DNA of 45,093 bases from Desulfobacterales bacterium (lineage in GTDB: Bacteria > Desulfobacterota > Desulfobacteria > Desulfobacterales > SpSt-501), in assembly GCA_030834695.1 (NCBI GenBank), contig JAUQXK010000138.1, positions 1 to 45,093 of the forward strand. The letters are read 5' to 3'. Position numbers and translations under genes: made by a program. Of this stretch, positions 4,610-34,365 are shown piece by piece; the stretch's first letter is position 1, and each line of letters begins with the position of its first letter. Under the pieces are notes generated by a model that did not search any database, had not been told where the DNA came from, and saw only the letters and a list, made by a program, of their open reading frames with translations.

Positions 4610-4744
4610 GGCACTCCCATAACACACCGGCGATCACCCCTGCAACAGTCGTTCGGGATGATCGCCGGCACATGGCATCTTATGTGGTTGGCACCGAAAG
4701 CCGGAGCTCCGTTCCAACTGAGAATGCGGAGCCCGCTTCGACCT

Positions 4745-6526: not shown

Positions 6527-6667
6527 AACAATCCACTATCCTTTTGGGTTTCTCTTGCAGGTTCGAATTCCGTCCGGAGCATCTGGCCACGCCGCAAAAC
6601 ACCAACTATTCAACGCTGCCGTTGGACCCCAACGTCCTACCGCAGCCGAAACCGGCAAGATAAATTT

Positions 6668-6681
6668 CGATACCTGTATCG
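6668..6681. promoter_or_regulatory. Palindrome CGATAC-CT-GTATCG overlapping the candidate -10
   Basis: A perfect 6-bp-arm inverted repeat with a 2-bp centre. It overlaps the putative -10 of the lipid cluster and could be an operator site. No cognate regulator is encoded next to it. Confidence 0.35.
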
Positions 6682-6701
6682 TGTTTATTATGCAATGTCA
6701 A
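6673..6701 (-). promoter_or_regulatory. Weak candidate promoter for the lipid cluster
   Basis: A perfect TTGACA (6696-6701 on the minus strand) is followed after 17 bp by TACAGG, a poor -10. It lies about 150 bp upstream of the acyl-AMP ligase, within an AT-rich gap (6527-6962) that holds no gene I can recognise. Confidence 0.3.
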
Positions 6702-6962
6702 ATCCTGCAGCCGCCCACGCTCCTTATAAGAGATGGATTATATCCGCAGAACCTTAAAAAAGCTAATCAAAAAGGCGCAAAACTAATAATTCATGTTTCT
6801 TGGAAATGCAAGAGGTTCTTCTAATGAACCAACACCACCTTGAAAACCGGGACAATTTGTGAAACAGTGCAGTTCCAATTTTCATCAAACGGCCGAGTCT
6901 CTGGCACTCTCACGCGCCTGCGGCAGGCCCCGGCCCCCGACGGTCACCTGATCCGATGATAT

Positions 6963-7775
6963 ATGACGAACGTTTGCACGCAACGGTTTACGGCCATCGT
7001 TCTCGCGGCTGACCGTACCCCGAACGATCCGGTGGCGATCGCTGCCCAGGTGCCCTGCAAGGCGCTGGCGCCGGTGGGCGGTCGGCCCATGGTTCTTCGG
7101 GTGCTCGACGCCTTGGTCGCGTCTGGCCAGATCAAAACCTGCATTCTCTGCGGTCCGCCGAGAGCCATTGTCGAACGCGAGCCGTTGCTCCAGGAACGGC
7201 TGGCATCGTCCGCCCTGAGTTGGCTGGCGCCGGGCGCCACGCCCAGCACCAGCGTCGCCGGGGCGCTAGCGGCCATTCCTCGCGGAACGCCGGTGCTGGT
7301 GACCACGGCGGATCACGCCCTGTTGCAGCCGGAGATGGTTTCGCATTTCTGCCGCGAAGCATTCGCCTCCGGCAGCGATGTCGTGGCGGCCCTGGCCTCC
7401 TACCCGCAGATCATGAGCAAATACCCGGGGATGCGGCGGACGCGCACCCGTTTTCGGGACGGGGATTTCTGTGGCTGCAACCTTTTTGCCTTCTTAACCC
7501 CGGAAAGCCATGCGGCAGCGGATTTTTGGCGGCGCGTTGAGAACGAGCGCAAGCGACCGGTCAAGATGTTGGGCGAGTTGGGCTGGACCGTGGTCCTGCG
7601 CTATCTCTTGGGGCGGCTATCGTTGGATGATGCGTTGCAGCATATTTCCCGGAAGATGGGGCTTCGGGTGGGCGTCGTGATCATGCCATTTCCGGAAGCA
7701 GCCGTGGACGTCGACTCCGCCGGTGATTGGGACATGGTCCGGGACATCGCTTCCCGCGCAGAATGCCGGGCGTGA
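6963..7775 (+). CDS. MobA-like nucleotidyltransferase family protein
   Basis: A 270-aa protein with the NTP-transferase fold. IVLAADRTPNDP replaces the usual LAAGxGxRM loop, then KALAPVGGRPMVLRVLDAL follows, and TTADHALL stands where the metal-binding aspartate lies. Such enzymes transfer an NMP to a sugar phosphate, alcohol phosphate or cofactor. The gene ends directly before lptF and is probably co-transcribed with lptF-lptG. That suggests a role in an envelope lipid head group or glycan, but the substrate is unknown. The missing second glycine of the nucleotide loop is unusual and may mean altered specificity. Confidence 0.65.
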   Translation: MTNVCTQRFTAIVLAADRTPNDPVAIAAQVPCKALAPVGGRPMVLRVLDALVASGQIKTCILCGPPRAIVEREPLLQERLASSALSWLAPGATPSTSVAGALAAIPRGTPVLVTTADHALLQPEMVSHFCREAFASGSDVVAALASYPQIMSKYPGMRRTRTRFRDGDFCGCNLFAFLTPESHAAADFWRRVENERKRPVKMLGELGWTVVLRYLLGRLSLDDALQHISRKMGLRVGVVIMPFPEAAVDVDSAGDWDMVRDIASRAECRA

Positions 7776-7796
7776 TTGGCGAGGCAGGGCGAAGCG

Positions 7797-8873
7797 TTGA
7801 TTCTGCAACGATACATCATCACGGAAATCCTCAAGCCCGCGGCGGCGATTCTCATCGTGCTGGTGATCATCCTGGCGAGTTATTCCGCGATCACCTACCT
7901 GGCTCAAGCCGTCGCCGGGTCGCTCCCGCCGAGCACCGTGGGGCTGCTTATCCTGCTCCGGATCGGCATGTCGCTGGAAGTTCTGCTGCCGACGACCTTC
8001 TACCTTTCCGTCGTCATCGCCCTGGGTCGGCTTTACAAAGACTCCGAGATGACGGCGTTGTCCGCATGCGGGGTGGGGATCCTGGGCGTGGTGCGACCGG
8101 TCTTTCTGTTGTCGCTTCCCGTCGCCATGCTGGCCGGCTGTGCCTCGCTTTATATTCGGCCAGAATCCTATGAGAAAATTTATCGCGTCATGGACCAGGC
8201 GCAGACGGAGTTCGACATTTCGCGGTTGGAAGCCGATAACTTTCTGGAGATCGGGAACGGCAAATATGTGTTCTTTGCCGAAGCGGTGGGAGACTCGCAG
8301 GGTGGCGCCCAGCGGGTTTTCATCCGTGTGGCCGAAGGCGATAAACGACAGGTGATCCAGGCGCAGCGAATGGTCCAGGGCGAGGCCGACGCCAAGGGTC
8401 AGCGGGTGCTGGTTTTCCGCGAGGGTGCATTTTATGAGTTTCCGGTGAAGGACCCCCAGGGAACCATCTCGCATTTCGATCTGGCGGAGTACCCGCTGCC
8501 GGCCGACGCGGAGAGCGGGTCGCGCTATCGCCGCAAGGCGGCGGATAGCTATGAGCTTTTTCAATCTACCCGGCTCGAAGACGTGGCCGAACTGCAGTGG
8601 CGCCTGTCCACCCCTCTGTCTACCCTGCTGCTGGCGCTGGTCGGAGTGCCGCTCAGCAAAAGCAATCCCCGTCGGGGAAAATACGCCAAGATCGGACTGG
8701 CCATCATCATTTTCGCCGTCTACTATCAGCTGTTCGTGATCGCCAAAACCTGGGTGGAAAAGGCGGTGATCCCCGCCGGGGTGGGGATATGGTGGGTGCC
8801 GTTTCTGATGGCATTGCTCGCTGTATTGCTGCTGTGGCGGACGGGGGAGGTCTTTTTTCGGCACCCGCGATGA
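7797..8873 (+). CDS. lptF: LPS export ABC transporter permease LptF
   Basis: A 358-aa member of the YjgP/YjgQ permease family. It begins with QRYIITEILKPAAAIL, has three N-terminal membrane helices, a periplasmic beta-jellyroll middle (about residues 125-260), and three C-terminal helices including LALVGVPLSKSNPRRGKYA. With LptG and the LptB ATPase it extracts lipid from the inner membrane for transport to the outer membrane. The proposed start is the TTG at 7797, preceded by AGGCAGGGCG; an in-frame TTG at 7776 directly follows the upstream stop. It overlaps lptG by ATGA at 8870-8873. Neither LptB nor LptC is in the window. Confidence 0.88.
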   Translation: MILQRYIITEILKPAAAILIVLVIILASYSAITYLAQAVAGSLPPSTVGLLILLRIGMSLEVLLPTTFYLSVVIALGRLYKDSEMTALSACGVGILGVVRPVFLLSLPVAMLAGCASLYIRPESYEKIYRVMDQAQTEFDISRLEADNFLEIGNGKYVFFAEAVGDSQGGAQRVFIRVAEGDKRQVIQAQRMVQGEADAKGQRVLVFREGAFYEFPVKDPQGTISHFDLAEYPLPADAESGSRYRRKAADSYELFQSTRLEDVAELQWRLSTPLSTLLLALVGVPLSKSNPRRGKYAKIGLAIIIFAVYYQLFVIAKTWVEKAVIPAGVGIWWVPFLMALLAVLLLWRTGEVFFRHPR

Positions 8874-9949
8874 ACGAGTCCATCAAAATCATTGACCGCT
8901 ACCTCGGCCGAAATACCCTGCAGGGGTTTTTCCTGGTGTTGTCCGTCCTGGTGGTGCTCTTAAGTTTCATGGAGCTTCTCATCCAGGTCAAAGACATCGG
9001 CAAAGGCAGCTTCCAAATGGCGGATGCGTTCAGTTTCGTCGCCTTGACGATTCCCAAACGCATGGTCGACCTCATGCCTGTGGCGGCATTGCTCGGAAGC
9101 ATCGTCGCCCTGGGTCTGCTCGCCGATCATCAGGAACTCACGGCCATGCAGGCGGCCGGTATTTCGGTGCAGCGCATTGCTTTCTCCGTTTTGGGGACAA
9201 GCGTCGTGCTCATGCTGACCGCCATCCTCATGGCGGAATTCGTCGCGCCGCCCCTCGATCAGATGGCCCGGATCCAGCGGTCTCGGGCCATCTACGGCAA
9301 GTCGGTGACGATGTCCAAGGAGGGGTTCTGGGTTCGGCACGGCAACGCGTTCGTTCATGTCGGACGCGCGCTTTCCGCAGAAAAGGCCGCCGATATCGAA
9401 GTGTATGAACTGGACGAATCGGGCCGCCTCCGGCAATTCGTCGCGGCGGCGGAGGCGGTCATCGACCGTCGGCATGATTGGCTGCTCAAAGGAATCCACG
9501 CGAAAACATTCAGTGGGGATTCGGTCGAGACGCGGTCGATGGACGAATACCGCTTGAACGCTTTTCTGACCCCGGGTCAAGTGGCATTGCTTCAGCTTCC
9601 GCCCGACAGCCTCTCGCTTTCGGATTTGTTGAGCTATATCCGCAGCCTCGAAGAACGCGCCCAGAATTCAAAAGCGTATGCGCTGGCGTTCTGGCAAAAA
9701 GTCTGTCTGCCGGTTACCACCGGAATCATGGTGCTGCTGTCGCTCACCTTTATTTTCGGCTCGACGCGCACCCGCAATGCCAGCCAGCGGATTTTTCTGG
9801 GAATGCTCACCGGGGTGGTCTTTCATCTGGCCAATCAGATTTTCGGGCATTTGGGGCTGATTCTCAATATCCCGCCGATCCTGACGACGCTGCTGCCGGT
9901 CGGTTTGGTTCTCATCATTGCCCTCCGGCTTCTCCGGCGCGCTTTCTGA
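8870..9949 (+). CDS. lptG: LPS export ABC transporter permease LptG
   Basis: A 359-aa YjgP/YjgQ permease starting IKIIDRYLGRNTLQGFF. Membrane helices flank a periplasmic jellyroll domain (about residues 130-265), and the C-terminal part includes LSLTFIFGSTRTRNASQRIF. It pairs with LptF in the inner-membrane LptB2FG complex. The ATG overlaps the lptF stop (ATGA), showing translational coupling and equal dosage. The longer reading frame starting inside lptF is not the natural start. Location beside a ceramide-like gene cluster leaves open whether it serves LPS or another lipid, though the housekeeping role is the default. Confidence 0.88.
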   Translation: MNESIKIIDRYLGRNTLQGFFLVLSVLVVLLSFMELLIQVKDIGKGSFQMADAFSFVALTIPKRMVDLMPVAALLGSIVALGLLADHQELTAMQAAGISVQRIAFSVLGTSVVLMLTAILMAEFVAPPLDQMARIQRSRAIYGKSVTMSKEGFWVRHGNAFVHVGRALSAEKAADIEVYELDESGRLRQFVAAAEAVIDRRHDWLLKGIHAKTFSGDSVETRSMDEYRLNAFLTPGQVALLQLPPDSLSLSDLLSYIRSLEERAQNSKAYALAFWQKVCLPVTTGIMVLLSLTFIFGSTRTRNASQRIFLGMLTGVVFHLANQIFGHLGLILNIPPILTTLLPVGLVLIIALRLLRRAF

Positions 9950-10010
9950 AGACGCGCCCACCGCGTCCGTTCCGCAGCCCGTTGCGCCGCCGTGGTTCCT
10001 GAAACGGCAG

Positions 10011-10970
10011 TCATTCTTCAAGGGAATGGGGTTGCGGGCGGTATCCCGGATAGAGATGCGGATAATAATCCTTCCAGCGCTTCTGCATCCATAAATATTG
10101 ATCCGGATGTTTCCGGACGGCCTGCTCCACGATATCCGTGATCCGCTGGCTGTTGCACGCCAGGTCGTTTTTTAAGCGGCCCGAGCGCTGGACCGCCACG
10201 GGTGCAGAAACCTCGATCGTGAATGATCCATCCGGGTTCCGAAGCGTGAACGCGGCAATGATCGGTGCGGCGCAGCGAGCGGCGAGCATGGCGGCCGCCG
10301 GGCTGACCCGCGTGCGGTGACCGAAATAATTGACGGCCACACTCTGCTTGCGGGAACTTAAATCGACCATCAGTGCGACGATACCGTCTTCCCGGACGGC
10401 CTTCAACATCTTGGGAAACGCCTTTCTTTTGGAAATGAGATGGTTCCCGAAGCGGGTCCTGGCATGGTTCACCCAACGATCCAGCCAGCGGGGAACCAGG
10501 GGACGCACTACGATGTGGACCCGCTTCCCAAAATGGCAGGCGAGGTACTGAAGCCCGATTTCCCAGTTGCCCAGATGGGCGGACACGAGAATAATGCCTC
10601 GTTTATCCTCCAGGGCGCGACGAAAATGGTCTTCACCGCTCAGCCGGCAACGGGAAAGAATGGCGCTGGGCGACAGATGCGCACATTGGACCATCTCCGT
10701 TAGGGTCATTCCAAAGTTATGGAAAGCCCGCCGGGAGACCTCCACGATTTGACGGGTTTTCCATGAGGGAAATGCGAATTGCACGTTGTGCTGCGCGATA
10801 GCGCGATAGGGTCCGCCCAGGCGGAAGGCCATCTCGCCGAACATGTTGCCCCAGCGCATCAATCCGCTTGGCCGAATAGACCCGATCGTTCGCGCGATGA
10901 GGCCGCTGGGCTTGACGTCCTGGTTCGTTCGGCAGCAAGCATTCTGTTCCAGCAAAGGGCTATCCCCCAT
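10011..10970 (-). CDS. Lysophospholipid/lipid A acyltransferase, LpxL/HtrB family
   Basis: A 319-aa LPLAT-family protein. The catalytic H-x4-E motif is SAHLGNWEIGL near residue 135, followed by VHIVVRPL and later VALMVDLSSRKQSVAVNYFG, the usual second conserved block. These inner-membrane-associated enzymes add a secondary acyl chain to Kdo-lipid A or a related acceptor. The gene converges on lptG with a 61-bp gap. ATG 10970 has only a distant GGGAG. A hydrophobic N-terminal anchor typical of LpxL is weak here. The acyl chain and acceptor are not evident. Confidence 0.82.
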   Translation of the reverse strand: MGDSPLLEQNACCRTNQDVKPSGLIARTIGSIRPSGLMRWGNMFGEMAFRLGGPYRAIAQHNVQFAFPSWKTRQIVEVSRRAFHNFGMTLTEMVQCAHLSPSAILSRCRLSGEDHFRRALEDKRGIILVSAHLGNWEIGLQYLACHFGKRVHIVVRPLVPRWLDRWVNHARTRFGNHLISKRKAFPKMLKAVREDGIVALMVDLSSRKQSVAVNYFGHRTRVSPAAAMLAARCAAPIIAAFTLRNPDGSFTIEVSAPVAVQRSGRLKNDLACNSQRITDIVEQAVRKHPDQYLWMQKRWKDYYPHLYPGYRPQPHSLEE

Positions 10971-23628: not shown

Positions 23629-24966
23629 TCAGGATGACGCCCGTTGTTTCAGCTCCGATAGCCAGCGCCAATTGAACGGCTCCCGCTGGCAGGGCAGAAC
23701 GGCATTGTTGGTGTAAAGCGGGTCCGCGGCCAGATCGTAGCGCGAGGCGGCCGCTGCTTGGTCCCATAGCGCGGTGCCCGGGATCGGTGCGTAATAGGCC
23801 AGGACTGGCGTGATGCCGGCGCGTTTGACCGTGTCGATGGACCGAGCGACGGACGCTGTTTCCTGCCCCGGCAATCCCACGAGCAGATAGGCGCCGATCT
23901 GACGGCGGTCAAAGCCCGCGTTCCGCAGCCGCCGCACGGCACGCTCGAACTCAGCGGCGGTGACTTTGCGGTCCAGATCCCGGTTTTCGAACTCGGTGGT
24001 CTCCAGGCCCAGGCGCAGCGTGATGAAGCCGGCCTTGAACATGAGATCGGCCGTTTCGGCGGTGATCCCGCGGATGTGCACGGCGTTCGGGGTATGGAAG
24101 CGCACATCCAGGCCGCTGCGCACGATGGCCGCGAGGACCGGTACGGCATGACCTTCCGGGTCGGCCAGAAAGGCGTCGTCGTACAACACGAAATCCGATA
24201 CGCCCCAACAGCGGTGCCAATGCGTCAGCTCCGCCACGACCGACTCCGGGCTGCGCCGCAGCCGGCGGGATTCCAGCAGATGCGCCGCGCAATAGGGGCA
24301 GGCGAACGGACAGCCGCGGGTGGTCAGCAACGGCACGCAAGGGATCTGATGCTGGAGATCGAAGGCCGGGAGCGGATAGGAGTCGAGATGGTCGGGATGG
24401 AAGCGCGGTGCGGCCGCCCAGCCGGTGTGCGCTGCCACCAACTCCAACACGGCCGCTTCGGCGGAACCCGTAAAAATTTCGTCCGCCCCGCACGTTCGGC
24501 GGGCGTGGTCGCGGCAGAGCGTCGCATAGATGCCGCCGAGTACCAGCGGCGTCTCCGGGAGGACCTCTCGCACGGCGGCCACGGTTTCGCGGACCCCCGT
24601 GTACCAGTAGGTCATGGCCGAGGTGACCAGGATGAGGTCGGGGCGCCCGATCGCGCGAAGGTCTTCGCGGAGCCAGGCCGGCTCGATCCCGTAGCGCGCG
24701 TAGTGGCGCGGTACGTCCGGAAACTGACAAGGTTTCGGGAGCCGTGTCTTGCGGTACGGCCCACGGCCGTAACGCGCGCGGGGAACGGTCGCCGGCGCCC
24801 GCGGATGGAAACGGTCCAGGCAGTCGATGTAGGACACCCGGCAGCCGTGCATCCGGAGGATCGCCGCCAGGCTCAGCAGCCCCAGCGGTCTGGCCCAAAC
24901 GTCATACGCCGCGAAGTCATGGATCCAGGGATTGACGAGGAGAATGTGAGGCACGTCATTCGTCAT
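23629..24966 (-). CDS. B12-binding-domain radical SAM protein
   Basis: A 445-aa protein with an N-terminal cobalamin-binding-like region (about 1-190: LLVNPWIHDFAAYD, LGGIYATLC) and a radical SAM barrel. The cluster motif is CPFACPYC near residue 222, with GLETTEFENRDLD and LLVGLPGQE as later barrel strands. Such proteins methylate or rearrange unactivated carbons, often in cofactor or lipid tailoring. Its start overlaps the stop of the siroheme-decarboxylase-like gene by 11 nt, so the two are coupled. It is unlike AhbC/AhbD heme enzymes in having the N-terminal B12-like domain. Substrate unknown; a tetrapyrrole is suggested only by context. Confidence 0.8.
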   Translation of the reverse strand: MTNDVPHILLVNPWIHDFAAYDVWARPLGLLSLAAILRMHGCRVSYIDCLDRFHPRAPATVPRARYGRGPYRKTRLPKPCQFPDVPRHYARYGIEPAWLREDLRAIGRPDLILVTSAMTYWYTGVRETVAAVREVLPETPLVLGGIYATLCRDHARRTCGADEIFTGSAEAAVLELVAAHTGWAAAPRFHPDHLDSYPLPAFDLQHQIPCVPLLTTRGCPFACPYCAAHLLESRRLRRSPESVVAELTHWHRCWGVSDFVLYDDAFLADPEGHAVPVLAAIVRSGLDVRFHTPNAVHIRGITAETADLMFKAGFITLRLGLETTEFENRDLDRKVTAAEFERAVRRLRNAGFDRRQIGAYLLVGLPGQETASVARSIDTVKRAGITPVLAYYAPIPGTALWDQAAAASRYDLAADPLYTNNAVLPCQREPFNWRWLSELKQRASS

Positions 24967-25438
24967 CGTCCGTGGCGAAGTAGATCATCGAGGTTTTCTT
25001 AAGCTCCTCCCGGCTGAACAGCAGGGCGTAGTCGTCCACGGCGGCGGCCAGCGCCATCGCGCGGGCCGTATCGCGGCAGGCGGCCTCGTCGTCGGCATGG
25101 ATCATCGTGTAAAGATTGTAAGGCCACCGCGGTGTCGGGTTGCGCCGATAACAGTGCGACACCTGCCGGAAGGATGCCATCACGGCGCCGATTTCATCGA
25201 TGCGGTTTTCCGGGACCCGCCAGGCCGCCATGGCATTGGCCCGGTAGCCCGTTCGTTGGTGGCGAAGGGTGGCGCCGAAACGCCGGATGATTCCGCGGTC
25301 ACAAAGACGGCGCAGCGTTTCCATCAGCGTGTTCTCGGAAATCCCGAGGCGGCCGGCCATCTGGAGATAGGGCCTCTCCGTGATGGGCATGTCTTGTTGA
25401 ATGGAGGCGATGATTTTTTTTTCGATGTCGGTGAGCAT
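24956..25438 (-). CDS. Siroheme decarboxylase-like protein (AhbA/AhbB/NirGH family, Lrp fold)
   Basis: A 160-aa AsnC/Lrp-fold protein: an N-terminal winged helix (about 1-60, LQMAGRLGISENTLMETLRRL) and a RAM-like C-terminal domain. SHCYRRNPTPRWPYNLYTMIHA and the tail FSREELKKTSMIYF match siroheme decarboxylase subunits rather than amino-acid-sensing Lrp regulators. AhbA/AhbB convert siroheme to didecarboxysiroheme in the alternative heme pathway of sulfate reducers. That activity normally needs two paralogues; only one is here. It overlaps the downstream radical SAM gene by 11 nt. A DNA-binding role cannot be excluded. Confidence 0.78.
   Translation of the reverse strand: MLTDIEKKIIASIQQDMPITERPYLQMAGRLGISENTLMETLRRLCDRGIIRRFGATLRHQRTGYRANAMAAWRVPENRIDEIGAVMASFRQVSHCYRRNPTPRWPYNLYTMIHADDEAACRDTARAMALAAAVDDYALLFSREELKKTSMIYFATDDDE

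Positions 25439-25495: not shown

Positions 25496-25502
<7 letters not shown>
25473..25502. repeat. Inverted repeat at the mtnA stop codon
   Basis: GGACTGAG (25473-25480) and CTCAGTCC (25495-25502) with a 14-nt loop, overlapping the mtnA stop. The left side continues into CTGAGTGCTGCG-like direct repeats. It resembles low-complexity intergenic repeats and could act as a weak terminator. Confidence 0.4.
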
Positions 25503-26626
<1,124 letters not shown>

Positions 26627-26647: not shown

Positions 26648-27016
26648 CTACATTTTGGCCAGGGCGAAGTCGGTCTGGACCTCGCCGAGCAAAGCGTGAC
26701 GCCGGAACACCTGGCGCATTCGGTTGGCGTCCATGTGCTGGTAGACGATCGGCTCCGAATCCAGGGCCTCGACGGTCACGTTGGGTTCGCTGCTGCACAT
26801 GCCCATGCAGCCGGAGGTTACGACGCGGATGTCCTGGCGGTCGGCCTCGGCCATCTCCTGCATCAGGGCGTTCATGACCTCGCGGGCGCCGGCCGCGATC
26901 CCGCAGGTGCCCATGTGGACCGTGATCTTCACCCGGGCGTCGCCCTGGCGCAGGGACGTTGCCTTCAAGGTGGTTTCCTTGATACGTTTCAAATCCTCAA
27001 TGGTCATCTTTGCCAT
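26648..27016 (-). CDS. Thioredoxin-like [2Fe-2S] ferredoxin (NuoE/HydC-like)
   Basis: A 122-aa protein of the thioredoxin-fold [2Fe-2S] ferredoxin family. Cluster cysteines are visible as VHMGTCGIAAGA and, further on, TSGCMGMCSSEP. Such proteins stand alone or form the NuoE/HydC subunit of electron-bifurcating complexes. GGGAGGA before ATG 27016 supports the start; the gene overlaps the upstream ATP-binding protein gene by 20 nt. No NuoF/HydB or HydA partner is in the window, so it probably passes electrons to or from the hydrogenase-like proteins of this module. Cytoplasmic. Confidence 0.85.
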   Translation of the reverse strand: MAKMTIEDLKRIKETTLKATSLRQGDARVKITVHMGTCGIAAGAREVMNALMQEMAEADRQDIRVVTSGCMGMCSSEPNVTVEALDSEPIVYQHMDANRMRQVFRRHALLGEVQTDFALAKM

Positions 27017-27590
27017 GCGTGTCCTCCCTCGTCGTTGCGTGGATGTCGCCGCCGGCCAGGTCACTGAGCGCACGGCGGATGGATGCGGTGATATGCTGGA
27101 TGACGGCCGGGTCGTTCAGGGGAACGTCCTCCAATTGGTTCCTGAGATCCCGAGTGTCCAGCGAAAATTCGTTCTGATCTAACCTGTGGACGTAAACAAA
27201 GTCAACATGCGGGTTGCCCAGGATCAGCATGCCCAGGGTGGCCGCCATGTCTCCCAGCGGGGCGCGATCGATGTGGCTGCGCCGGAACAAGGCCGTCACC
27301 TCGGTGCCCCCGCCCGGCGGCGCGCTCACCGCGATATCCCCGCCGCAGCGCCGCGCCGCGGCCGCCAGCAGCGACAGCCCCAGCCCCACCCGCCGGGTGG
27401 TGCGCGTGGTGATGAACGGGTCGTCGATGCTGCGGATTTTTTCCGCAGGGATGCCCCGGCCGTTGTCCTGCACGGTGATCTGGAGCCGATCGTCGGGTAC
27501 CGACTCTTCCACCCGGATGGCGATGCCGTCGGCTCCCGCCGTAATTCCGTTTTCAACCACGTCCAGGATATGCAGCGACAGCTCCCGCAC
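26997..27590 (-). CDS. GHKL ATP-binding protein, histidine-kinase ATPase-like
   Basis: A 197-aa protein. Its N-box is LHILDVVENGITAGAD, its G1 box DNGRGIPAEK, and GLGLSLLAAAARRCGG is the lid/G2 region of a Bergerat ATPase. There is no dimerisation helix with a phospho-acceptor histidine, so it is not a complete sensor kinase. The C-terminal 80 residues (FVYVHRLDQNEFSLD) are unassigned. It uses a GTG start immediately after the PHP gene stop, and overlaps the [2Fe-2S] gene. It could phosphorylate a partner in the manner of anti-sigma kinases, or act as an ATP-dependent switch. That is inferred from fold and context. Confidence 0.8.
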   Translation of the reverse strand: MRELSLHILDVVENGITAGADGIAIRVEESVPDDRLQITVQDNGRGIPAEKIRSIDDPFITTRTTRRVGLGLSLLAAAARRCGGDIAVSAPPGGGTEVTALFRRSHIDRAPLGDMAATLGMLILGNPHVDFVYVHRLDQNEFSLDTRDLRNQLEDVPLNDPAVIQHITASIRRALSDLAGGDIHATTREDTHGKDDH

Positions 27591-28349
27591 TTAGGCCACG
27601 ATGCTCCTTCCCCGTTCGCCGCGAAGGGCCAGGCCGATTTCGGCGATGGTCGGCGCCGCCATCCTCAAGACGGTGTACGCGCGGCCGATGTCTTTGAGAA
27701 AATGGGCGTCCGAGGAGGCGATGCAGGGCCGGTCTCCGATTTCGGGCAGGGCCGTGCGCGCCTGAGGCAGGGCGATGCGGTAGGAGATTTCGACGCCGTC
27801 GAGCATGAGGTCCGGGGGGATGAAGCCGAGCTGGTTGATGATCCCATTGACGGGGCGGTCCACGTGGGAACTCAGGCTGAGCCCGTTCAGCGCATGGGTT
27901 TGGCGCACGATGTCGCCCAATCCGTGCCGCGTGGCGCCGATCAGCAGCCGCGGGTTTTCCCCCAGCACCTCATTGTCTTCGTTGGCCACGATCTGATAGC
28001 CGAAGACCTCGGGCTGATTCTGCCCCTCCAGACCGGCATAGACCCATTCCTGCATGGCCAGGGCGTGCTCCAATTCTCCGAAGACCGCCAGGATGTGGAC
28101 TTCTTCCTTGGAGCAGACTTCGAGACCGGGCAGGACGCAGATCCCGTGCCGTCCGCCTTCGCGCAGGACGGCGCCGGCGTTTTCGCTGGTGTTGTGGTCG
28201 CAGATCGCGATCAGATCCAGCGCGGCATCCCGGCAGCTCTGAATGACGTTGCGGGGGCTCATCTCCCAATCCCCGCAGGGGGACAGACAGGTATGAATAT
28301 GCAGATCGGCCCTGAATTCCCTCAGCACATCGAGTTCCCCGGCAGACAT
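27591..28349 (-). CDS. PHP-domain metal-dependent phosphoesterase
   Basis: A 252-aa PHP protein with the four metal-binding motifs in order: ADLHIHTCLSPCGD near residue 15, ICDHNTSEN near 50, the motif with PGLEVCSKEEVH, and SHVDRP and SSDAHFLKDIG towards the end. The family binds up to three metals and cleaves phosphoesters, such as histidinol phosphate, oligonucleotides or nucleotide second messengers. The gene lies 12 nt downstream of a DRTGG gene and abuts the GTG of the ATP-binding protein. In this module it may hydrolyse a small signalling molecule; no substrate can be named. Confidence 0.88.
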   Translation of the reverse strand: MSAGELDVLREFRADLHIHTCLSPCGDWEMSPRNVIQSCRDAALDLIAICDHNTSENAGAVLREGGRHGICVLPGLEVCSKEEVHILAVFGELEHALAMQEWVYAGLEGQNQPEVFGYQIVANEDNEVLGENPRLLIGATRHGLGDIVRQTHALNGLSLSSHVDRPVNGIINQLGFIPPDLMLDGVEISYRIALPQARTALPEIGDRPCIASSDAHFLKDIGRAYTVLRMAAPTIAEIGLALRGERGRSIVA

Positions 28350-28361
28350 GGGCAGATGGGG

Positions 28362-28712
28362 CTATGGCGTCGGGGCGGCCCCGACACCGAGGGCGTAGAG
28401 CCGTCCGGCCAGCTCGAAGGAGGAATGCGGCCAGGTAAGAACCGGTAGCTGCTCCTGGCTGGCCTTCTGGACGGTTTCCACGTCCGGTTCCCGGCCCCCG
28501 GTAATGACGATGGCGGCCATCTCCCTCAAAACCGCCACGGCCACGATGTTCAGATGGCCCTGGACTGTCAGCCAGATGCATCCGACCGGTGCCTTCGCCA
28601 TGACGTCGCTCAGCAGGTCGCCGCAATATCCGCCCTTGACCTCGCGATCCAGTCCCTGCTCCCCCGCGATCGGCTTCAGGTTGAATCCTTCGACGAGCTC
28701 TCTGACTCTCAT
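28362..28712 (-). CDS. DRTGG-domain protein, copy 2
   Basis: A 116-aa single-domain protein of the DRTGG family, with REVKGGYCGDLLSDVMAKAP and ITGGREPD as the conserved core. DRTGG domains occur as regulatory modules, for example N-terminal in some phosphotransacetylases and joined to CBS domains, and are thought to bind small ligands. The ATG overlaps the stop of the upstream hydrogenase-like gene (ATGA), with AAAGGAG upstream. It resembles the copy at 31911-32264 in length and domain. A ligand-binding regulatory partner for the iron-sulfur proteins is the likely role. Confidence 0.75.
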   Translation of the reverse strand: MRVRELVEGFNLKPIAGEQGLDREVKGGYCGDLLSDVMAKAPVGCIWLTVQGHLNIVAVAVLREMAAIVITGGREPDVETVQKASQEQLPVLTWPHSSFELAGRLYALGVGAAPTP

Positions 28713-30058
28713 CCGTGCTCCTTTCCAGAATCGGCGTCCGTCTCGGTCCGTCCACGTTTCAGACTCCGCACGTACATCCAGACGCAATCCTTGAGCTCCG
28801 CTTGGCCGTGAATGACGTCTTCGGCGAAAGTACGGCAGTCGGGAGCTCCGCAGGCCCCGCAGTTGTGATTTCCGAGTTCGGCCACCAGTTGCTCGACCCG
28901 CGCGGCGTCGGCCAGCGAAAGGGTCGGCTTGCGCGAGCTGAAGAACCGGCGCAGCACCTCCGGGCTTTTTTCGAGCTTGAACTTCCCCTGCTCATATTGG
29001 CGCAAAAGGGAATCCTTCGGCAGCCTCCGGCCCATGCCGAAGGTGGCGACCATCTTCTGAACATGCCGTTTGGCGATATACTTGTCGACGACCGCCAGGG
29101 CCCCTCCCAGGCAGGCCTCCCGGCAGGTGCGGAACTCGATGTACTCTACGTCCTTGAGAAGACCCATTTCGATTTTGTTAAGATAATCGACGGTCTCCTT
29201 CAAACCGTGCACGGCCAGCGAATTGTCGATTTCCATCCGCGTGATTTCGCCGCCGGACATGGCGGCAAAAGCGGCATCGGCGGTGGAGCAGGTCTCGAAT
29301 CCGAAGCGCGTCCATGAAAACGGTATCCGGTCCGATGCGAGGACCTTTTCCACCTGGGGCTTCAGGATCGGATAAATGTCGTTGATCCCGACGGCGACTT
29401 CCATGGGGCCGGGGCGGTGGGGATCGATACCAAAGGTCGATGCACTCAGGGTCGGGCAGGGGTTGATGTAATAGAACACGACCCGCTGTTTCTGGTTCTC
29501 GTAGTCGGGGATGATGCGCTCCCTGAGCTCGCGGGTCATCAGCCCCACCGGCCGGAGCACCGGCAGAATGTGGGGCAGCAAGCTCGGAAACTGAAAGGCG
29601 ATGAGGCGCACCACCACCGGGCAGATCGGAGAGATGAGCGGCCAGGGGGCTTCGCGCGTGGTTCGGTTGCGGCGGACAAACTCCGCCGCCGCAAATTCGA
29701 ACATTTCAAAGAAAAACGACATGTCGACCGTGTGCTGAAACCCCGTCTGGCGGAGCGCCATCAGGACCCCGCCGGGCATGATGCTGGGAAACTGGGCATA
29801 CAAGACCGGAGAGACCAGGGCGATGGCCACGTGATCGCGGCCGATGGACTCCGGCAGCTGCGTGGTGGAGCTCACGGCGCCGGCCGGGCAGACGCGCAGG
29901 CAGGCGGCGCATCCGATGCACTGGTCGACGAAGCGGACCGACTTCTGCCGGCGGATGCGGATGGCGTTGGTGGGGCAGACCTTCAGGCACTCGGCGCAGC
30001 CGGTACAACGTTCCTCGTGGAAGCGGACGTAAAGGCCATCGCTCGGCTCAGGCTTCAT
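28709..30058 (-). CDS. [FeFe]-hydrogenase-like iron-sulfur protein, copy 2
   Basis: A 449-aa protein. Two [4Fe-4S] ferredoxin motifs lie at residues 18-28 and 47-57. A hydrogenase large-subunit-like domain follows, with reduced H-cluster motifs SPICPVVV, INPCPTLS and TCREACLGG. The C-terminal FeS domain has CGACGAPDC plus a later Cys. The four cysteines that could hold a [4Fe-4S] subcluster remain, but the first Cys of TSCCP and the Lys of MPCxxK are absent. The domain order matches sensory HydS-type hydrogenases without a PAS domain. The ATG overlaps the stop of copy 1 (ATGA). Sensor or electron relay is likelier than H2 catalyst. Confidence 0.85.
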   Translation of the reverse strand: MKPEPSDGLYVRFHEERCTGCAECLKVCPTNAIRIRRQKSVRFVDQCIGCAACLRVCPAGAVSSTTQLPESIGRDHVAIALVSPVLYAQFPSIMPGGVLMALRQTGFQHTVDMSFFFEMFEFAAAEFVRRNRTTREAPWPLISPICPVVVRLIAFQFPSLLPHILPVLRPVGLMTRELRERIIPDYENQKQRVVFYYINPCPTLSASTFGIDPHRPGPMEVAVGINDIYPILKPQVEKVLASDRIPFSWTRFGFETCSTADAAFAAMSGGEITRMEIDNSLAVHGLKETVDYLNKIEMGLLKDVEYIEFRTCREACLGGALAVVDKYIAKRHVQKMVATFGMGRRLPKDSLLRQYEQGKFKLEKSPEVLRRFFSSRKPTLSLADAARVEQLVAELGNHNCGACGAPDCRTFAEDVIHGQAELKDCVWMYVRSLKRGRTETDADSGKEHG

Positions 30059-31404
30059 AGTCCACTCTCCGGGGAGCTGCGGCCGGGTTCATCCGGCGTG
30101 GCCTTCATGCACGGCCTGGACGGGTGGAGCCATTGGCAGTCACCCAGTTCCGCCTCGCCCCGGACGACGTCCTCGGCGAAGGTCGGGCAGTCGGGGGCGC
30201 CGCAGGCCCCGCAGCCCCAGCCGGCCACGGTGTCCAGGATCTTTTCGATGCGCACCATTTGCTCCAGCGACAGCGCCGGTTTGCGGTCGCCGAAAAAACG
30301 GGTCAAGGTCAACGGGCTTTTGTCGGGCTTGAACCGGCCCTTGTCGTAGAGGCGCAGGATGGTGTTGCCGGGGACCCGCCGGCCCAGGCCATGCAGATGC
30401 AGCATGCGCTGGACATTGCTCCGTGCCATGTACTTGTCCACGGCGCTCAGCACGCCCCCGAGACAGCCTTCGCGACAGGTGCGAAACTCGAAATACTCCA
30501 CCTCCTGGAAAAGCCCCATTTCGATTTTTTGGAGGTACGCGACGGTATCCCTCAATCCGTGCACGGCCATGGATTTTTCGATCCGCATGCTCGCAATTTC
30601 TCCGCCGGACATGGCGACCAGGGCGGCATTGGCGGTGGCGCAGGTTTCATACTCGAAATGCGTTTCTGAAAAAGGCGGCACTTCGGTCAGAATCGTGTCG
30701 ATGCGCTGATTCAGATCGGGGTAGAGGTCGTTGATGCCGATCGATATCTCCGGATGCCTCAGCGGGGTGCCGTCCGGGCCGAAGCGCTCCTGCTCCATGG
30801 TCGGGCAGGGGTTGAGGTAATAAAGGGCCACCTGCCGGCCCTGGGCCTCGTACGATGGGATGATGCGTTCTTTCACCTCGCGCGCCATCAAGGCCACCGG
30901 CCGCAGCACCGGCAGCACATGCGCCAGCAGGGCAGGAAACTGGAAGGCGATGAGCCGCACCACGGCCGGGCACACCGGCGAGATGAGCGGCCATGGCGCC
31001 TCCCCGGTCTCCCGGTTGCGCCGGATGAATTCGGCGGCGGCGAATTGAAACATTTCCAGGAAGATGGACATGTCGATCGTATGCCGGAAGCCCATGTGGC
31101 GAAGCCCCAGCAGAACGTCCTTCGGCATGGCTGTGGGAAACTGGGCATAAAGCACCGGTGATACGAGTGCGATGGCCACATGGCCGTTGCCGATCTGCTG
31201 CGGCGGGCGGGTGGCGGCGCTGATGGCGCCGGCCGCACACGCACGGATGCAGGCGCCGCAGCCGATGCACAGGTCCACCAGGCGAATCGATGTGCGGTTG
31301 CGGATGCGGATCGCCCGGGTCGGGCAAACCTTGAGGCATTCGGCGCATCCCGTGCAGCGCTCCTCGTGGAAACGGACGTAACAGGTCGTGTATTCGGGTC
31401 TCAT
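30055..31404 (-). CDS. [FeFe]-hydrogenase-like iron-sulfur protein, copy 1
   Basis: A 449-aa paralogue of the next gene, of the same length and architecture. Ferredoxin cysteines are at 17, 20, 23, 27 and 46, 49, 52, 56. H-domain cysteines are 145 (SPVCP), 200 (NPCPT), 310 and 314 (TCREGCLGG). A final FeS domain has 398, 401, 406 and 423. The position equal to the lysine of MPCxxK is Met203, and the proton-relay cysteine next to Cys145 is Val144. ETCATANAALVAMSGGE (251-269) is shared by both copies. The start overlaps the stop of the ATP-binding protein gene (ATGA). It could form a heterodimer with copy 2. No HydE, HydF or HydG maturase is in the window. Confidence 0.85.
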   Translation of the reverse strand: MRPEYTTCYVRFHEERCTGCAECLKVCPTRAIRIRNRTSIRLVDLCIGCGACIRACAAGAISAATRPPQQIGNGHVAIALVSPVLYAQFPTAMPKDVLLGLRHMGFRHTIDMSIFLEMFQFAAAEFIRRNRETGEAPWPLISPVCPAVVRLIAFQFPALLAHVLPVLRPVALMAREVKERIIPSYEAQGRQVALYYLNPCPTMEQERFGPDGTPLRHPEISIGINDLYPDLNQRIDTILTEVPPFSETHFEYETCATANAALVAMSGGEIASMRIEKSMAVHGLRDTVAYLQKIEMGLFQEVEYFEFRTCREGCLGGVLSAVDKYMARSNVQRMLHLHGLGRRVPGNTILRLYDKGRFKPDKSPLTLTRFFGDRKPALSLEQMVRIEKILDTVAGWGCGACGAPDCPTFAEDVVRGEAELGDCQWLHPSRPCMKATPDEPGRSSPESGL

Positions 31405-31841
31405 GGTGTCTCTTTGGGCGACTCCAGAAGAAACGTCATGCTGGCGCGCGTTCGGATGCCCGGTTCGGATTCGATCTGGATGTCGTCTGCGTTCTTCTTC
31501 ATGTTCGGCAGCCCCATGCCGGCACCGAAGCCCATTTCGCGCGCTTCATCCGAGGCGGTGGAGTAACCGGGTTGCATCGCCAGGGAAATATCTTGAATGC
31601 CCGGCCCATCATCGATGATTTCGATGATCAGACGGTCGTTTTCGATGCTCAGGTTCAGCACGCCGTCGCCTCCATGAATCACCACGTTCATCTCGCCTTC
31701 GTAGCTGCAGATTGCGACCCGCCGGATCAGGACGGGGTCCCAATGCATCGATTTGAGCAGGCTCTGGATGTGGATGGACGCTTCGCCGGCGTGGACAAAG
31801 TCGCGTGCTTTTATGAAAAAAAATTTTTTGAGACTGGCCAT
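31401..31841 (-). CDS. RsbT-like GHKL ATP-binding protein (anti-sigma kinase type)
   Basis: A 146-aa single-domain Bergerat ATPase. The N-box is YEGEMNVVIHG, the G1 box DDGPGIQDISLAM, and the G2 box GAGMGLPNMKKNAD. Size and the FGAGMGLPNMK segment are like RsbT/SpoIIAB serine kinases rather than histidine kinases. Those phosphorylate a STAS partner or sequester a sigma factor; no STAS or sigma gene is present here. The ATGA overlap with the hydrogenase-like gene implies that the two work together, so redox state may gate the ATPase. ATG 31841 lacks a clear ribosome site. Confidence 0.82.
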   Translation of the reverse strand: MASLKKFFFIKARDFVHAGEASIHIQSLLKSMHWDPVLIRRVAICSYEGEMNVVIHGGDGVLNLSIENDRLIIEIIDDGPGIQDISLAMQPGYSTASDEAREMGFGAGMGLPNMKKNADDIQIESEPGIRTRASMTFLLESPKETP

Positions 31842-31910
31842 GGATTTGCAAGGGAACGCAGCCTCCGCGCAAAGGCTGGAGGGGGTGCTGCTGCGGTCAG
31901 CGCAGCAGGG

Positions 31911-32264
31911 TTACCGTCGTCCGTCAAGCCCCGTAAGGCCGCGGGCATGCAGCCTGCCGCAACAAACAAACATCGAATAGGGGCTTGAAAAAAGCGGCAT
32001 GTCTTCGGTCCGGGCCACCGTAAGCACCTCCGGCGGCGGCCGTTTCCCCCGGACAAAAACGACGGCCACGACACCGGCGATCTTGGCCGTCCGAATCGTC
32101 TGGATGGTTGTCAGGCCGGTCATGAGCAGGGTGCCGTCGGTCGGCCGGGCCAGCACATCGCTCATCAGATCGCTGGCGCCACAGCGCGTGATTTCACTGT
32201 TCAGCCGGTCTTCTCCGTTCAACGTCGTTGCATCAAGTTCTTGCACAATATCGCATAGCTTCAT
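31911..32264 (-). CDS. DRTGG-domain protein, copy 1
   Basis: A 117-aa DRTGG-family protein, first gene of the module. The core is SEITRCGASDLMSDVLARPTDG and VVAVVFVRGKRPP. The family's usual GG before PD/PP is replaced by RGK. The C-terminus has SMFVCCGRLHARGL with adjacent cysteines absent from copy 2. ATG 32264 follows GGGGTCT; ATG 32273 is an alternative. The leader is about 100 nt from the strong promoter at 32372-32400. A ligand-sensing role is inferred. Confidence 0.72.
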   Translation of the reverse strand: MKLCDIVQELDATTLNGEDRLNSEITRCGASDLMSDVLARPTDGTLLMTGLTTIQTIRTAKIAGVVAVVFVRGKRPPPEVLTVARTEDMPLFSSPYSMFVCCGRLHARGLTGLDGRR

Positions 32265-32371: not shown

Positions 32372-32400
32372 AGTATAGATGGCAGGGGCTGAGGTGTCAA
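32372..32400 (-). promoter_or_regulatory. Near-consensus sigma-70 promoter of the redox module
   Basis: On the minus strand TTGACA (32395-32400), a 17-bp spacer and TATACT (32372-32377): eleven of twelve consensus bases at ideal spacing. Transcription would begin near 32365, giving a leader of about 100 nt before the DRTGG gene. Confidence 0.75.
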
Positions 32401-32616: not shown

Positions 32617-33102
32617 ATGGATGAAATTAGTTTTAAAATTTTAAAGATCCTCCAGGAGAAGGCCAGGGTGCCGAACATCGAAGTGGCCCGCCAGGTGGGG
32701 ATGGCGCCGTCGGGCGTGCTGGAGCGAGTGCGCAAGCTCGAGAAGCAGGGGATCATCGCCGGGTATGAGGTCCGCCTGAATCCCACCCGCTTCGACCGCG
32801 GTCTGGTGGCGTTCGTTTTTATTCACCTGCAGCCGGGCAGCGACCCATCCGGTTTGGGCAAGGCCCTGGCGGCCATTCCGGATGTTCAGGAGATCCACTA
32901 CGTTGCTGGTGAAGATTGTTTTTTGGCCAAGGTCAGAGTGGCCGACACGGCTCAGCTCGAGCGGGTGCGCCGGGAGAGGATCGCGGCCCTGCCTCAGGTC
33001 CGGTCCACCCGCACCGTGATTGCGTTGCATACCTACAAAGAAACAGCCCGCATTCCGCTGGATGATTCCGCCATCCAGAAACCGAAGAAAAGGAGAACGT
33101 GA
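32617..33102 (+). CDS. Lrp/AsnC-family transcriptional regulator
   Basis: A 161-aa regulator. The N-terminal helix-turn-helix spans about 5-55 (ARQVGMAPSGVLERVRKLEKQG), followed by the RAM ligand-binding domain with VQEIHYVAGEDCFLAKVRV. Proteins of this type bind an amino acid or related effector and form dimers to octamers on DNA. It lacks the siroheme-decarboxylase signature seen in the gene at 24956. It lies 3 nt upstream of a diaminopimelate-decarboxylase-like gene, so it probably controls that operon and itself through the AT-rich region before it. The ribosome site is weak (GGCGG). Confidence 0.9.
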   Translation: MDEISFKILKILQEKARVPNIEVARQVGMAPSGVLERVRKLEKQGIIAGYEVRLNPTRFDRGLVAFVFIHLQPGSDPSGLGKALAAIPDVQEIHYVAGEDCFLAKVRVADTAQLERVRRERIAALPQVRSTRTVIALHTYKETARIPLDDSAIQKPKKRRT

Positions 33103-33105
33103 AAC

Positions 33106-34365
33106 ATGCCGATGTCCGTTGATTTCGAAAGGCGGCTCTATCCCATCCTCGATCAGGTGGTCGCCCATTTCGGTACCCCGTTCCACATCTATGACGAAGC
33201 CGGCATCCGCCAGACGGGGGAAGCCCTGAAGAACGCTTTCGCTCAGGTGCCGGGCTTCCGGGAGTACTTTGCCGTGAAGGCGCTTCCCAACCCGCGCATT
33301 CTATCTATTATGCGCGCGATGGGATTCGGTTTCGACTGCAGCTCGGCGCCCGAGCTGATGCTCGGCCGTCGCATCGGGGCGCGCGGCGAGGACCTCATGT
33401 TCACCTCCAACAACACGGACCGGCGCGAGTTCGAAGCGGCGGCGAGCGACGGCGGGTGCATCCTCAACCTGGACGACATCAGTCTGGTGCCGAAGGTTCC
33501 GAAGTTCCCGGAACGGATCTGCTTCCGCTACAACCCCGGCCCGCGCCGCACGGGCAACGCCATCATCGGCAACCCCGTGGAGGCCAAATACGGTCTGGCC
33601 CACGAACAGGTCGCCGCGGCCTACCGTCTGGCGATCGACCGCGGCGCCGCGCGCTTCGGGATCCACACCATGGTGGTGTCCAACGAACGCAACTACGGGT
33701 TCATGGTGCAGACCGTGGCGATGCTGTTCGAGCTGATCGAATGGGTGTCGCGGGAGCTCAACATCCGCTTCGAGTTTATGAACATGGGCGGCGGGCTGGG
33801 CATTCCCTACCGGCCGGCGGACGAGCCGCTCGATCTGGCCGCATTGGGGTCCGAGGTCACGGAGCTGTTCCTTCGCTTCAGGGCCCAGCACGGCTATGCG
33901 CCGCGGCTCTATATGGAGAGCGGCCGTTACATGACCGGCCCTCACGGCGCGCTGGTCGTCACGGCGATCAACCGCAAGGACATCTACCGGACCTACATCG
34001 GTGTCGACGCCTGCATGTCGGCCCTCATGCGCCCGGGCATGTACGGCGCCTATCACCACATTACGGTTCCCAAAAAGCTGGGTCAGAAAGCGGCCGGGCC
34101 GGTGGACGTGGTGGGTTCGTTGTGCGAAAACAATGACAAGTTCGCCATCCAGCGCGAGCTGCCGCCGATTGCAGACGGCGACCTGCTGGTGATCCACGAC
34201 ACCGGCGCCCACGGCCATGCCATGGGGTTCACTTACAACGGCAAGCTGCGGCCGCAAGAATTGCTGCTGTGCAGCGACGGGTCGGTGGAGTTGATTCGGC
34301 GGGCCGAAACCGTCGAAGACCATTTTGCCACACTCGCCTTCCAACCGGATGTGCTCAAGATATGA
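33106..34365 (+). CDS. Diaminopimelate decarboxylase-like PLP enzyme (fold type III)
   Basis: A 419-aa alanine-racemase-fold decarboxylase. Lys58 in YFAVKALPNPRIL binds PLP, MGGGLGIPY is the phosphate-binding glycine loop, SLCENNDKFA supplies the catalytic cysteine of the dimer partner, and GAHGHAMGFTYNGKLRP is the usual C-terminal block. Diaminopimelate decarboxylase makes lysine; relatives act on ornithine, arginine or carboxynorspermidine. AAAGGAG precedes the ATG. The ATG of an MFS transporter overlaps its stop. Grouping with Lrp and an MFS protein rather than dap genes suggests a regulated, possibly non-lysine role. LysA activity remains the default. Confidence 0.82.
   Translation: MPMSVDFERRLYPILDQVVAHFGTPFHIYDEAGIRQTGEALKNAFAQVPGFREYFAVKALPNPRILSIMRAMGFGFDCSSAPELMLGRRIGARGEDLMFTSNNTDRREFEAAASDGGCILNLDDISLVPKVPKFPERICFRYNPGPRRTGNAIIGNPVEAKYGLAHEQVAAAYRLAIDRGAARFGIHTMVVSNERNYGFMVQTVAMLFELIEWVSRELNIRFEFMNMGGGLGIPYRPADEPLDLAALGSEVTELFLRFRAQHGYAPRLYMESGRYMTGPHGALVVTAINRKDIYRTYIGVDACMSALMRPGMYGAYHHITVPKKLGQKAAGPVDVVGSLCENNDKFAIQRELPPIADGDLLVIHDTGAHGHAMGFTYNGKLRPQELLLCSDGSVELIRRAETVEDHFATLAFQPDVLKI

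Follow-up and report, generated by a model that had tools for sequence, protein, structure and literature searches.

A conserved operon with a doubled HydS-like protein as a candidate hydrogen-blind redox switch in a Desulfobacterales bacterium

What would proteins of the [FeFe]-hydrogenase fold do in a bacterium apparently not equipped to assemble the hydrogen-binding centre of that enzyme? The question is raised by an eight-gene locus in a 45,093-nt stretch of DNA from a Desulfobacterales bacterium of the genus SpSt-501 (assembly GCA_030834695.1, contig JAUQXK010000138.1), referred to as the window herein. A preliminary description had read the locus as a duplicated, stand-alone module sensing H2 or the redox state of ferredoxin. 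We found one operon in which the hydrogenase-like (HYD) gene alone is doubled, and its recurring gene order across many phyla is more than chance. H2 sensing by the module is very improbable in this genome. Our preferred reading, to which we give a probability of about 0.5 from sequence comparison, is that this conserved operon would exert redox control over HydBC-type (Bfu) electron-bifurcating enzymes, in a form blind to H2 and with a full switch mechanism. Such a module would probably sense the electron balance of the cell rather than hydrogen gas.

A check of the open reading frame (ORF) list placed the eight ORFs on the minus strand, spanning 32264-26648, in the following order.

31911..32264, minus strand: DRT1, stand-alone DRTGG protein of type 1 (PF07085, 22.9 bits, below the cut-off of 25.2; ATG at 32264)
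31401..31841, minus strand: RsbT/SpoIIAB-like GHKL protein, a probable kinase (HATPase_c and HATPase_c_2 in Pfam)
30055..31404, minus strand: HYD1, HydS-like protein of the [FeFe]-hydrogenase fold, copy 1 (PF02906, Fer4, PF04060)
28709..30058, minus strand: HYD2, HydS-like protein, copy 2 (Fe_hyd_lg_C, Fer4, PF04060; 60% identical to HYD1)
28362..28712, minus strand: DRT2, stand-alone DRTGG protein of type 2 (PF07085, 27.7 bits, cut-off 25.2)
27591..28349, minus strand: PHP-family metallophosphoesterase (PHP_C above and PHP just under the Pfam cut-off)
26997..27590, minus strand: HATPase, a GHKL ATPase of the type found beside HydC/HydB genes (HATPase_c, 2.6e-19)
26648..27016, minus strand: HydD/HndB-like thioredoxin-fold protein (PF01257, 2Fe-2S_thioredx, 22.5 bits, below the cut-off of 24.8)

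The genes are closely packed, with 4-nt ATGA overlaps at the RsbT/HYD1, HYD1/HYD2 and HYD2/DRT2 junctions, a 20-nt overlap between HATPase and the HydD-like gene, a 0-nt PHP/HATPase junction, and gaps of 69 nt (DRT1/RsbT) and 12 nt (DRT2/PHP). The layout given in the preliminary description, with eight genes on one strand, three ATGA overlaps and one of 20 nt, was thus borne out, as was its statement that no HydA, HydB or maturase gene follows directly; MtnA begins 21 nt past the HydD-like gene instead, and the window holds no adjacent HydA-HydB-HydC set. Its division of the operon into two half-sets was rejected. DRT1 and DRT2 (28% identical) and the RsbT-like protein and HATPase (weakly alike) are distinct families, and all four of these families stand in the same order in relatives with a single HYD.

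HydS-like proteins and the H-cluster machinery

All 16 cluster Cys residues are intact in both HYD proteins. In a set of 111 sequences that counts HYD1 and HYD2, each of these Cys occurs in 103 or more. They comprise two N-terminal 4xCys [4Fe-4S] motifs (C18, C21, C24, C28 and C47, C50, C53, C57), the four Cys of the H-cluster cubane (C146, C201, C312, C316) and a C-terminal Cx2Cx4Cx16C motif (C400, C403, C408, C425), where PF04060 was found; no PAS domain appeared in the Pfam scan. The motif-2 Lys (PCxxK) has a role in diiron binding. It is present in 86 of the 111 sequences and is lost from both window copies, being Met in HYD1 and Leu in HYD2. The proton-transfer Cys299 is replaced as well, since SPICP of HYD2 aligned to TSCCP of a periplasmic [Fe] hydrogenase (PDB) and HYD1 has SPVCP. 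At the position of Met353, where most of the 111 sequences have Ser or Thr, both copies have Asn (INPC/LNPC).

These features overlap largely with those of group D hydrogenases, which the accessible text of PMC8163306 defines by two N-terminal [4Fe-4S] motifs, an H-domain, a C-terminal Cx2Cx4Cx16C and no PAS domain. The same text names a well-conserved hydroxyl residue in place of Met353 for group D. Replacement of the proton-transfer Cys is a feature of groups C and D. Because the motif-2 Lys is lost and Asn stands where Ser or Thr is expected, we call HYD1 and HYD2 HydS-like and do not file them as group D members; the likeness rests on architecture. Compared with the group D (M2e) protein TamHydS of Thermoanaerobacter mathranii, they share the [4Fe-4S] motifs, the missing C299 equivalent, the C-terminal motif, the lack of PAS and the link to bifurcating-type genes and a histidine-kinase-like ATPase. 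They differ in their tandem arrangement, the lost Lys, the Asn and a genome without HydF, HydG or HydA, and their two DRTGG, PHP and RsbT-like partners go beyond the TamHydS account as far as its accessible text extends. We also considered the lost Lys as a general marker of H-cluster loss and rejected it, as many relatives in HydF-less genomes keep the residue. Its loss here is therefore supporting evidence only.

Further evidence comes from what the genome, reported as 100% complete with 4.96% contamination, does not hold. HYD1 and HYD2 are its only PF02906 proteins. The HydF search returned GTPase-type matches only (best 87.7 bits against a cut-off of 325.55; none at E<=1e-50), and no HydG was found at E<=1e-40; HydE was not searched for. 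The six other genomes of the genus likewise yielded no HydG and no PF02906 match above 77 bits. Since no other PF02906 protein, HydF or HydG was found and the motif-2 Lys is lost, H2 sensing, as had been suggested, is very unlikely here. We regard the module as H2-blind in this genome with high confidence, and the bacterium apparently cannot assemble the hydrogen-binding centre.

This pattern extends beyond the genus. Of 247 genomes of the phylum searched with a profile of both HYD proteins, 29 gave a match, this genome included. HydF (E<=1e-50) was found in 4 of the 29, and in 3 of 19 among the high-quality genomes. HydG was above cut-off in five (G093, G122, G175, G177, G245), with sub-cut-off matches in G071 and G201, and a stronger PF02906 protein besides HYD was present in seven (G057, G093, G122, G175, G177, G201, G245). 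This leaves 22 of the 29 without a HydA-type protein, HydF or HydG above cut-off; for instance, G015, a single contig 99% complete, yielded neither HydF nor HydG. A further 80 loci were the best 80 of at least 589 confirmed relatives, retrieved with one sequence pattern, and this set hence leans towards query-like members. HydF was found in 33 of these 80 genomes, 29 of the 39 from Bacillota and 4 of the 41 others (Desulfoluna L084, Coatesbacteria L106, Acidobacteria L112 and Terriglobia L117). The count combines 12 of 50 in a first subset with 21 of the remaining 30, all Bacillota by title, and 12/50 alone would mislead. Within the 50-genome subset, the 38 HydF-less genomes have HydB near the module in 23 cases and HydA in none, while the 12 with HydF have HydB in nine and HydA in four. 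Most relatives are metagenome-assembled genomes (MAGs), for which loci with HydA beside HydB served as a yardstick: 16 of 19 such loci in the best-80 set have HydF, and L115, L134 and L150 gave no HydF match. Because this miss rate is 3/19, MAG incompleteness fails to account for the 37 of 41 non-Bacillota genomes without HydF.

The doubling of HYD is rare. A second HYD gene within 300 nt on the same strand was found in 0 of 109 loci, and within the genus the pair is present in two of seven genomes, this one and G297. In the tree, the first G297 copy is the partner of HYD1, at 86% identity and 100/99 support, and the second is that of HYD2, at 83% and 100/100. G298, G300, G301 and G302 keep a HYD1-type gene, and the G299 gene falls with HYD2 with moderate support (85/84). 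In a larger tree without G297, HYD2 stands beside HYD1 plus L076 (97/50, weak SH support). Both trees place the duplication before the HYD1/L076 split. Comparison with G297 indicates purifying selection on both copies (dN/dS about 0.16 and 0.19). An assembly artefact was considered as the origin of the tandem and rejected, as the copies are 60% identical and the pair is also found in G297, where each copy falls with the corresponding one of this genome.

The conserved operon and its neighbours

The 29 phylum genomes and the best 80 relatives together give 109 loci, with at least three records shared between the sets (L047/L091, L014/L098, L061/L135). Once L014, L046, L047 and L061 had been dropped as copies (L046 is a near-copy of L087), presence counts were drawn from 58 loci that extend 4 kb or more upstream and 6 kb or more downstream; lists over the 109 loci keep the copies. 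The order DRT1/RsbT/HYD/DRT2/PHP/HATPase/HydD-like was found in most of the 109 loci and in many phyla, often with HydC and HydB added. Among the 58 loci, RsbT is present in 53, DRT1 in 52, DRT2 or a HYD-DRT fusion in 52, PHP in 47, HATPase in 47, HydC in 45, HydB in 44, the HydD-like gene in 44 and HydA with H-cluster motifs in 21. HYD-DRTGG fusions occur in 7 of the 109 loci (6 distinct records) and point to direct contact between the two proteins. In L064 the fused DRTGG domain is type 1-like by eye and a separate DRT2 is also there; in L104 a second DRTGG-RsbT-HYD set lies directly upstream of a complete module. Reduced operons without PHP were seen in L068-L071, L110, L111, L112 and L117; in some of them DRT1 or HATPase is missing as well. 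This suggests that the RsbT-like kinase, HYD and DRTGG form the core.

Outside the module, the commonest neighbours are HydC and HydB (NuoE/NuoF-like), in agreement with the earlier suggestion that these families recur near bifurcating HydABC enzymes in other anaerobes. We surveyed 71 loci with HydB in reach, contig C71 of this genome and sister genomes included, using labels given by likeness to eight queries; the survey includes copies (L061/L135, L076/L175) and a near-copy (L046/L087), and several loci are cut by contig ends. Near HydB we found HydA with H-cluster motifs in 22, a formate-dehydrogenase/NuoG-like subunit in 18, Rnf-like genes without HydA in 5 (3 more have both), only an unclassified 2Fe-2S/ferredoxin-type subunit in 2 and none of these in 24. 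Because the partner subunits near HydB vary, we conclude that the NuoE/NuoF-like (HydC/HydB) core, and not hydrogenase, is what the module travels with. By eye, the module of L054-L058 directly follows complex I membrane subunit genes and precedes NuoE/NuoF/NuoG-like genes, and some of the 'HydB/NuoG' calls there belong to a complex-I-like set. Rnf-like genes, also by eye, lie behind HydB near the module in L050, L089 and L093 (RnfC/D) and in L078 and L086 (RnfB-like). A Rex-like repressor gene was seen by eye near the module in L051, L107, L108, L122, L124 and L126, in five of these six loci within three genes upstream of HYD; this is consistent with NADH-linked control.

In this genome the HydC/HydB genes lie on C71 (L160, locus coordinates 4231-10826), where PNP and two amidohydrolase genes are divergent from a NuoE-like HydC, a third DRTGG gene (type 1) and a solitary HydB with no A subunit behind it. 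G298, G300 and G302 have a single cluster, HydB-DRTGG-HydC divergent from PNP-deaminase-deaminase-module-MtnA-AhbB-radical SAM, of which L160 is the other half. The idea of a stand-alone system hence holds in part: the module occurs both beside HydABC and in genomes in which no catalytic [FeFe]-hydrogenase was found, but HydC, the third DRTGG and HydB are in this genome on C71 and in three sister genomes beside the module. Like the HydABC/Bfu family (including HydD of Acetobacterium woodii), the genome has HATPase and HydD/HndB-like genes with HydC/HydB elsewhere; unlike that family, HydC and HydB are outside the window and no A subunit is recognised with them in the genus. On contig C50 (L162), a cluster of HydC-like (by eye), HydD-like, HydB (1045 aa) and 590-aa 2Fe-2S subunit genes is followed by a look-alike, by eye, of the NiFe-hydrogenase large subunit, and H2 metabolism of this genome may run via NiFe enzymes.

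The remaining features next to the operon are a promoter-like site and MtnA.

32372..32400, minus strand: promoter-like site TTGACA-17 nt-TATACT, upstream of the operon (11 of 12 consensus matches, sigma-70-like)
25496..26626, minus strand: MtnA, S-methyl-5-thioribose-1-phosphate isomerase (TIGR00512, 410.7 bits, cut-off 279)

The two promoter-type sites in the region compare with a mean of 1.4 in shuffles, a count near chance that makes this a weak signal, and a terminator scan of the region gave 6 sites against a mean of 5.8, no excess. MtnA lies downstream of the module in all six other genomes of the genus and is likely the next gene of the operon there. It is followed by AhbB and a B12-binding radical-SAM protein. 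The siroheme decarboxylase AhbB (window 24956-25438; 188 bits, cut-off 125) has no AhbA directly adjoining, and its position behind MtnA is kept across the genus. On the other side, window 32617-34365 holds a divergent gene for an Lrp/AsnC regulator and one resembling diaminopimelate decarboxylase (271.7 bits, cut-off 297.9); this arrangement recurs in L073/L178, and in G299 both genes are likewise upstream. The amidohydrolases of C71 resemble 5'-methylthioadenosine (MTA)/5'-deoxyadenosine deaminases. None of the deaminases or HydC reaches an NCBIfam cut-off, and HydB passes one NuoF model; salvage roles for these genes and bifurcation by HydC/HydB are thus predicted from sequence likeness.

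The proposed switch and its alternatives

The kinase, PHP and ATPase motifs of the operon are intact, as judged from conservation alignments limited to rows within set length ranges. RsbT/SpoIIAB-type kinases have a catalytic Glu four residues before a Mg-binding Asn, and the corresponding E48 and N52 of the RsbT-like protein are invariant in 91 sequences. It shares the GHKL fold, the invariant Glu-x3-Asn and the glycine boxes with the SpoIIAB/RsbT/RsbW anti-sigma kinases, and differs from them in that no STAS protein was found among the eight Pfam-scanned genes and no sigma-factor gene was seen in the operon. All family scores are below the NCBIfam cut-offs (best match spIIAB, 50.8 bits, cut-off 135). 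In HATPase, D10 (0.99) and N14 (1.00) are conserved in 75 sequences. DRT1, numbered from the ATG at 32264, has an invariant S35, with D32 at 0.99 and T49 at 0.95 in 77 sequences, and DRT2 shares the invariant Ser35, the almost invariant Asp32 and the strongly conserved Thr49. The AlphaFold2 (AF2) model of DRT2 (pLDDT 95.5) matches HPr kinase/phosphatase and DRTGG structures 2ioj (TM 0.74) and 3l2b, a match that includes the CBS/DRTGG region of an Ap4A-regulated pyrophosphatase. The DRTGG fold is common to the pyrophosphatase and the HPr kinase N-terminal domain, whereas here it stands alone, with no CBS or kinase domain. In that pyrophosphatase, Ap4A and AMP bind the CBS domains and DRTGG is likely important, according to the accessible part of PMC7705103.

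In PHP-family proteins, the HxH, DH, E, H, H and DxH motifs form the metal-ligand set. This set is complete in the PHP protein (H17, H19, D51, H52, E77, H85, H162, D214, H216; 0.99-1.00 in 81 sequences). Because EndoQ, RNase AM and a PHP enzyme with bound Mn and AMP are, among others, the structures nearest to its AF2 model (pLDDT 96.3), a nucleotide or nucleic acid is a plausible substrate. Binding and hydrolysis of a small messenger by the DRTGG and PHP proteins, as put forward earlier, is possible, but some loci that are alike in other respects (L068-L071, L111) have no PHP. The last gene had been described as a [2Fe-2S] protein, but its product has three conserved Cys (C38, C70, C74; each 0.95) rather than four. 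It resembles the N-terminal part of HydB, and we take HydD and HndB to be its names. For A. woodii, the additional subunit HydD has been predicted to hold no cofactor (PMC6288185, accessible part), and the three-Cys protein would fit this prediction if it belongs to the same family. A cyclic-nucleotide-binding and a HydD-like domain are joined in one protein at L046:6072-6839, L078:12137-12880, L080:4993-5778 and L081:4946-5695; both halves match in all four loci (Pfam domain call from L046), a possible link to nucleotide signalling.

In the switch that we propose, HYD1 and HYD2 would carry ordinary [4Fe-4S] clusters, one of them in the former H-cluster site, and would take electrons from ferredoxin or HydBC. 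Their redox state would alter their hold on the DRTGG proteins, and the changed hold would switch the RsbT-like kinase. The substrate of this kinase is probably a DRTGG protein, with invariant Ser35 as the candidate site, or else another partner. The PHP metalloenzyme would remove the phosphate or hydrolyse a DRTGG-bound nucleotide. The output would set the activity or amount of a HydBC-type NADH/ferredoxin oxidoreductase via the GHKL ATPase and the HydD-like protein, whose genes travel with HydC-HydB in other lineages.

Several observations weigh against this reading. HydC and HydB are named by NuoE/NuoF similarity, so their bifurcating role is itself predicted, and the closest neighbours in the genus are nucleoside-salvage genes, which redox control does not explain. 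The absences are partly uncertain, most relatives being MAGs and HydE lying outside the search. Most Bacillota genomes with the operon also have HydF, and a true HydA often lies next to it; H2 sensing is possible there. Moreover, L051, L065, L067, L123, L141 and L148 are without most partners. Lastly, since PHP is absent in L068-L071 and L111, and PHP and HATPase in the Acidobacteria loci L110, L112 and L117, not every step of the mechanism is general.

Of the alternatives, the one that survives best, though unlikely, is that HYD1 and HYD2 form the A-type subunit of the solitary HydBC, a bifurcating oxidoreductase with a third substrate, with the ATPases, DRTGG and PHP proteins as accessory or regulatory factors. 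HYD keeps all cluster ligands, no A subunit is recognised behind HydB in the genus (L160, L175-L177), and the HydA homologue of bifurcating NiFe-hydrogenases has a [4Fe-4S] cluster instead of the H-cluster (PMC9304861, accessible part). However, a separate HydA or Fdh/NuoG-like subunit stands alongside HYD in many loci, and HYD is without the N-terminal 2Fe-2S domain seen in the HydA of L063. We consider it quite unlikely that the role of the GHKL ATPases and Fe-S proteins is not signalling but the loading, repair or reductive activation of HydBC-type enzymes. Two ATPases with conserved ATP-binding motifs are indeed linked to HydBC along with several Fe-S proteins, and in L133, L143, L149 and L152 HATPase and the HydD-like gene stay with the HydC-HydB-HydA operon, divergent from the rest of the module. 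Yet the invariant kinase-type Glu48 of the RsbT-like protein suggests phosphotransfer, and DRTGG and PHP have no obvious part in maturation.

It is improbable that this genus has recruited the operon to MTA/5'-deoxyadenosine salvage, a pathway in which PHP and MtnA would then act. G297, G298, G300 and G302 do have PNP, two deaminase-like genes and MtnA on the flanks of the module, deaminases and MtnA also occur in L045 and L082, and MtnA alone in L085; but no more than 5 of the 109 loci have MtnA near the module, the deaminases stay below NCBIfam cut-offs, and we know of no redox step of this salvage that needs the module. True H2 sensing, the role put forward for group C/D HydS, by an H-cluster that binds H2 and signals through the ATPases, fits the group D architecture and the Bacillota loci, where the module is often beside HydA and 29 of 39 genomes have HydF, but is highly improbable given that both copies lack the motif-2 Lys, this genome yielded no HydF, HydG or HydA and 22 of the 29 phylum genomes show the same absences.

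Parts of this arrangement are known. Bifurcating hydrogenase genes preceded by a histidine kinase and a group-D-like hydrogenase gene have been published (PMC3608648, PMC8163306, accessible parts), and the C-terminal cluster of a group D HydS does not respond to H2, according to the portion available of PMC13104023. Our literature search, with most subscription journals outside it, returned no account of the whole operon or of its independence from H-cluster maturation, and the accessible parts of PMC11406978 and PMC9431212 contain no description of the whole operon.

Research on group D HydS proteins treats them as H2 sensors, and for their signalling route the operon offers candidate partners in the RsbT-like kinase, the two DRTGG proteins and the PHP phosphoesterase. 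The 37 of 41 non-Bacillota genomes without HydF argue that the signal there is the ferredoxin/NADH balance and not H2. We tentatively suggest, at somewhat less than even odds, that most non-Bacillota members are diiron-free redox sensors in a kinase/DRTGG/phosphoesterase switch governing NADH-ferredoxin bifurcation, whatever the catalytic partner. If true, anaerobes would share a general system of redox signalling that has yet to be recognised as one and that covers hydrogenase, formate dehydrogenase-like, complex-I-like and Rnf partners, or none.

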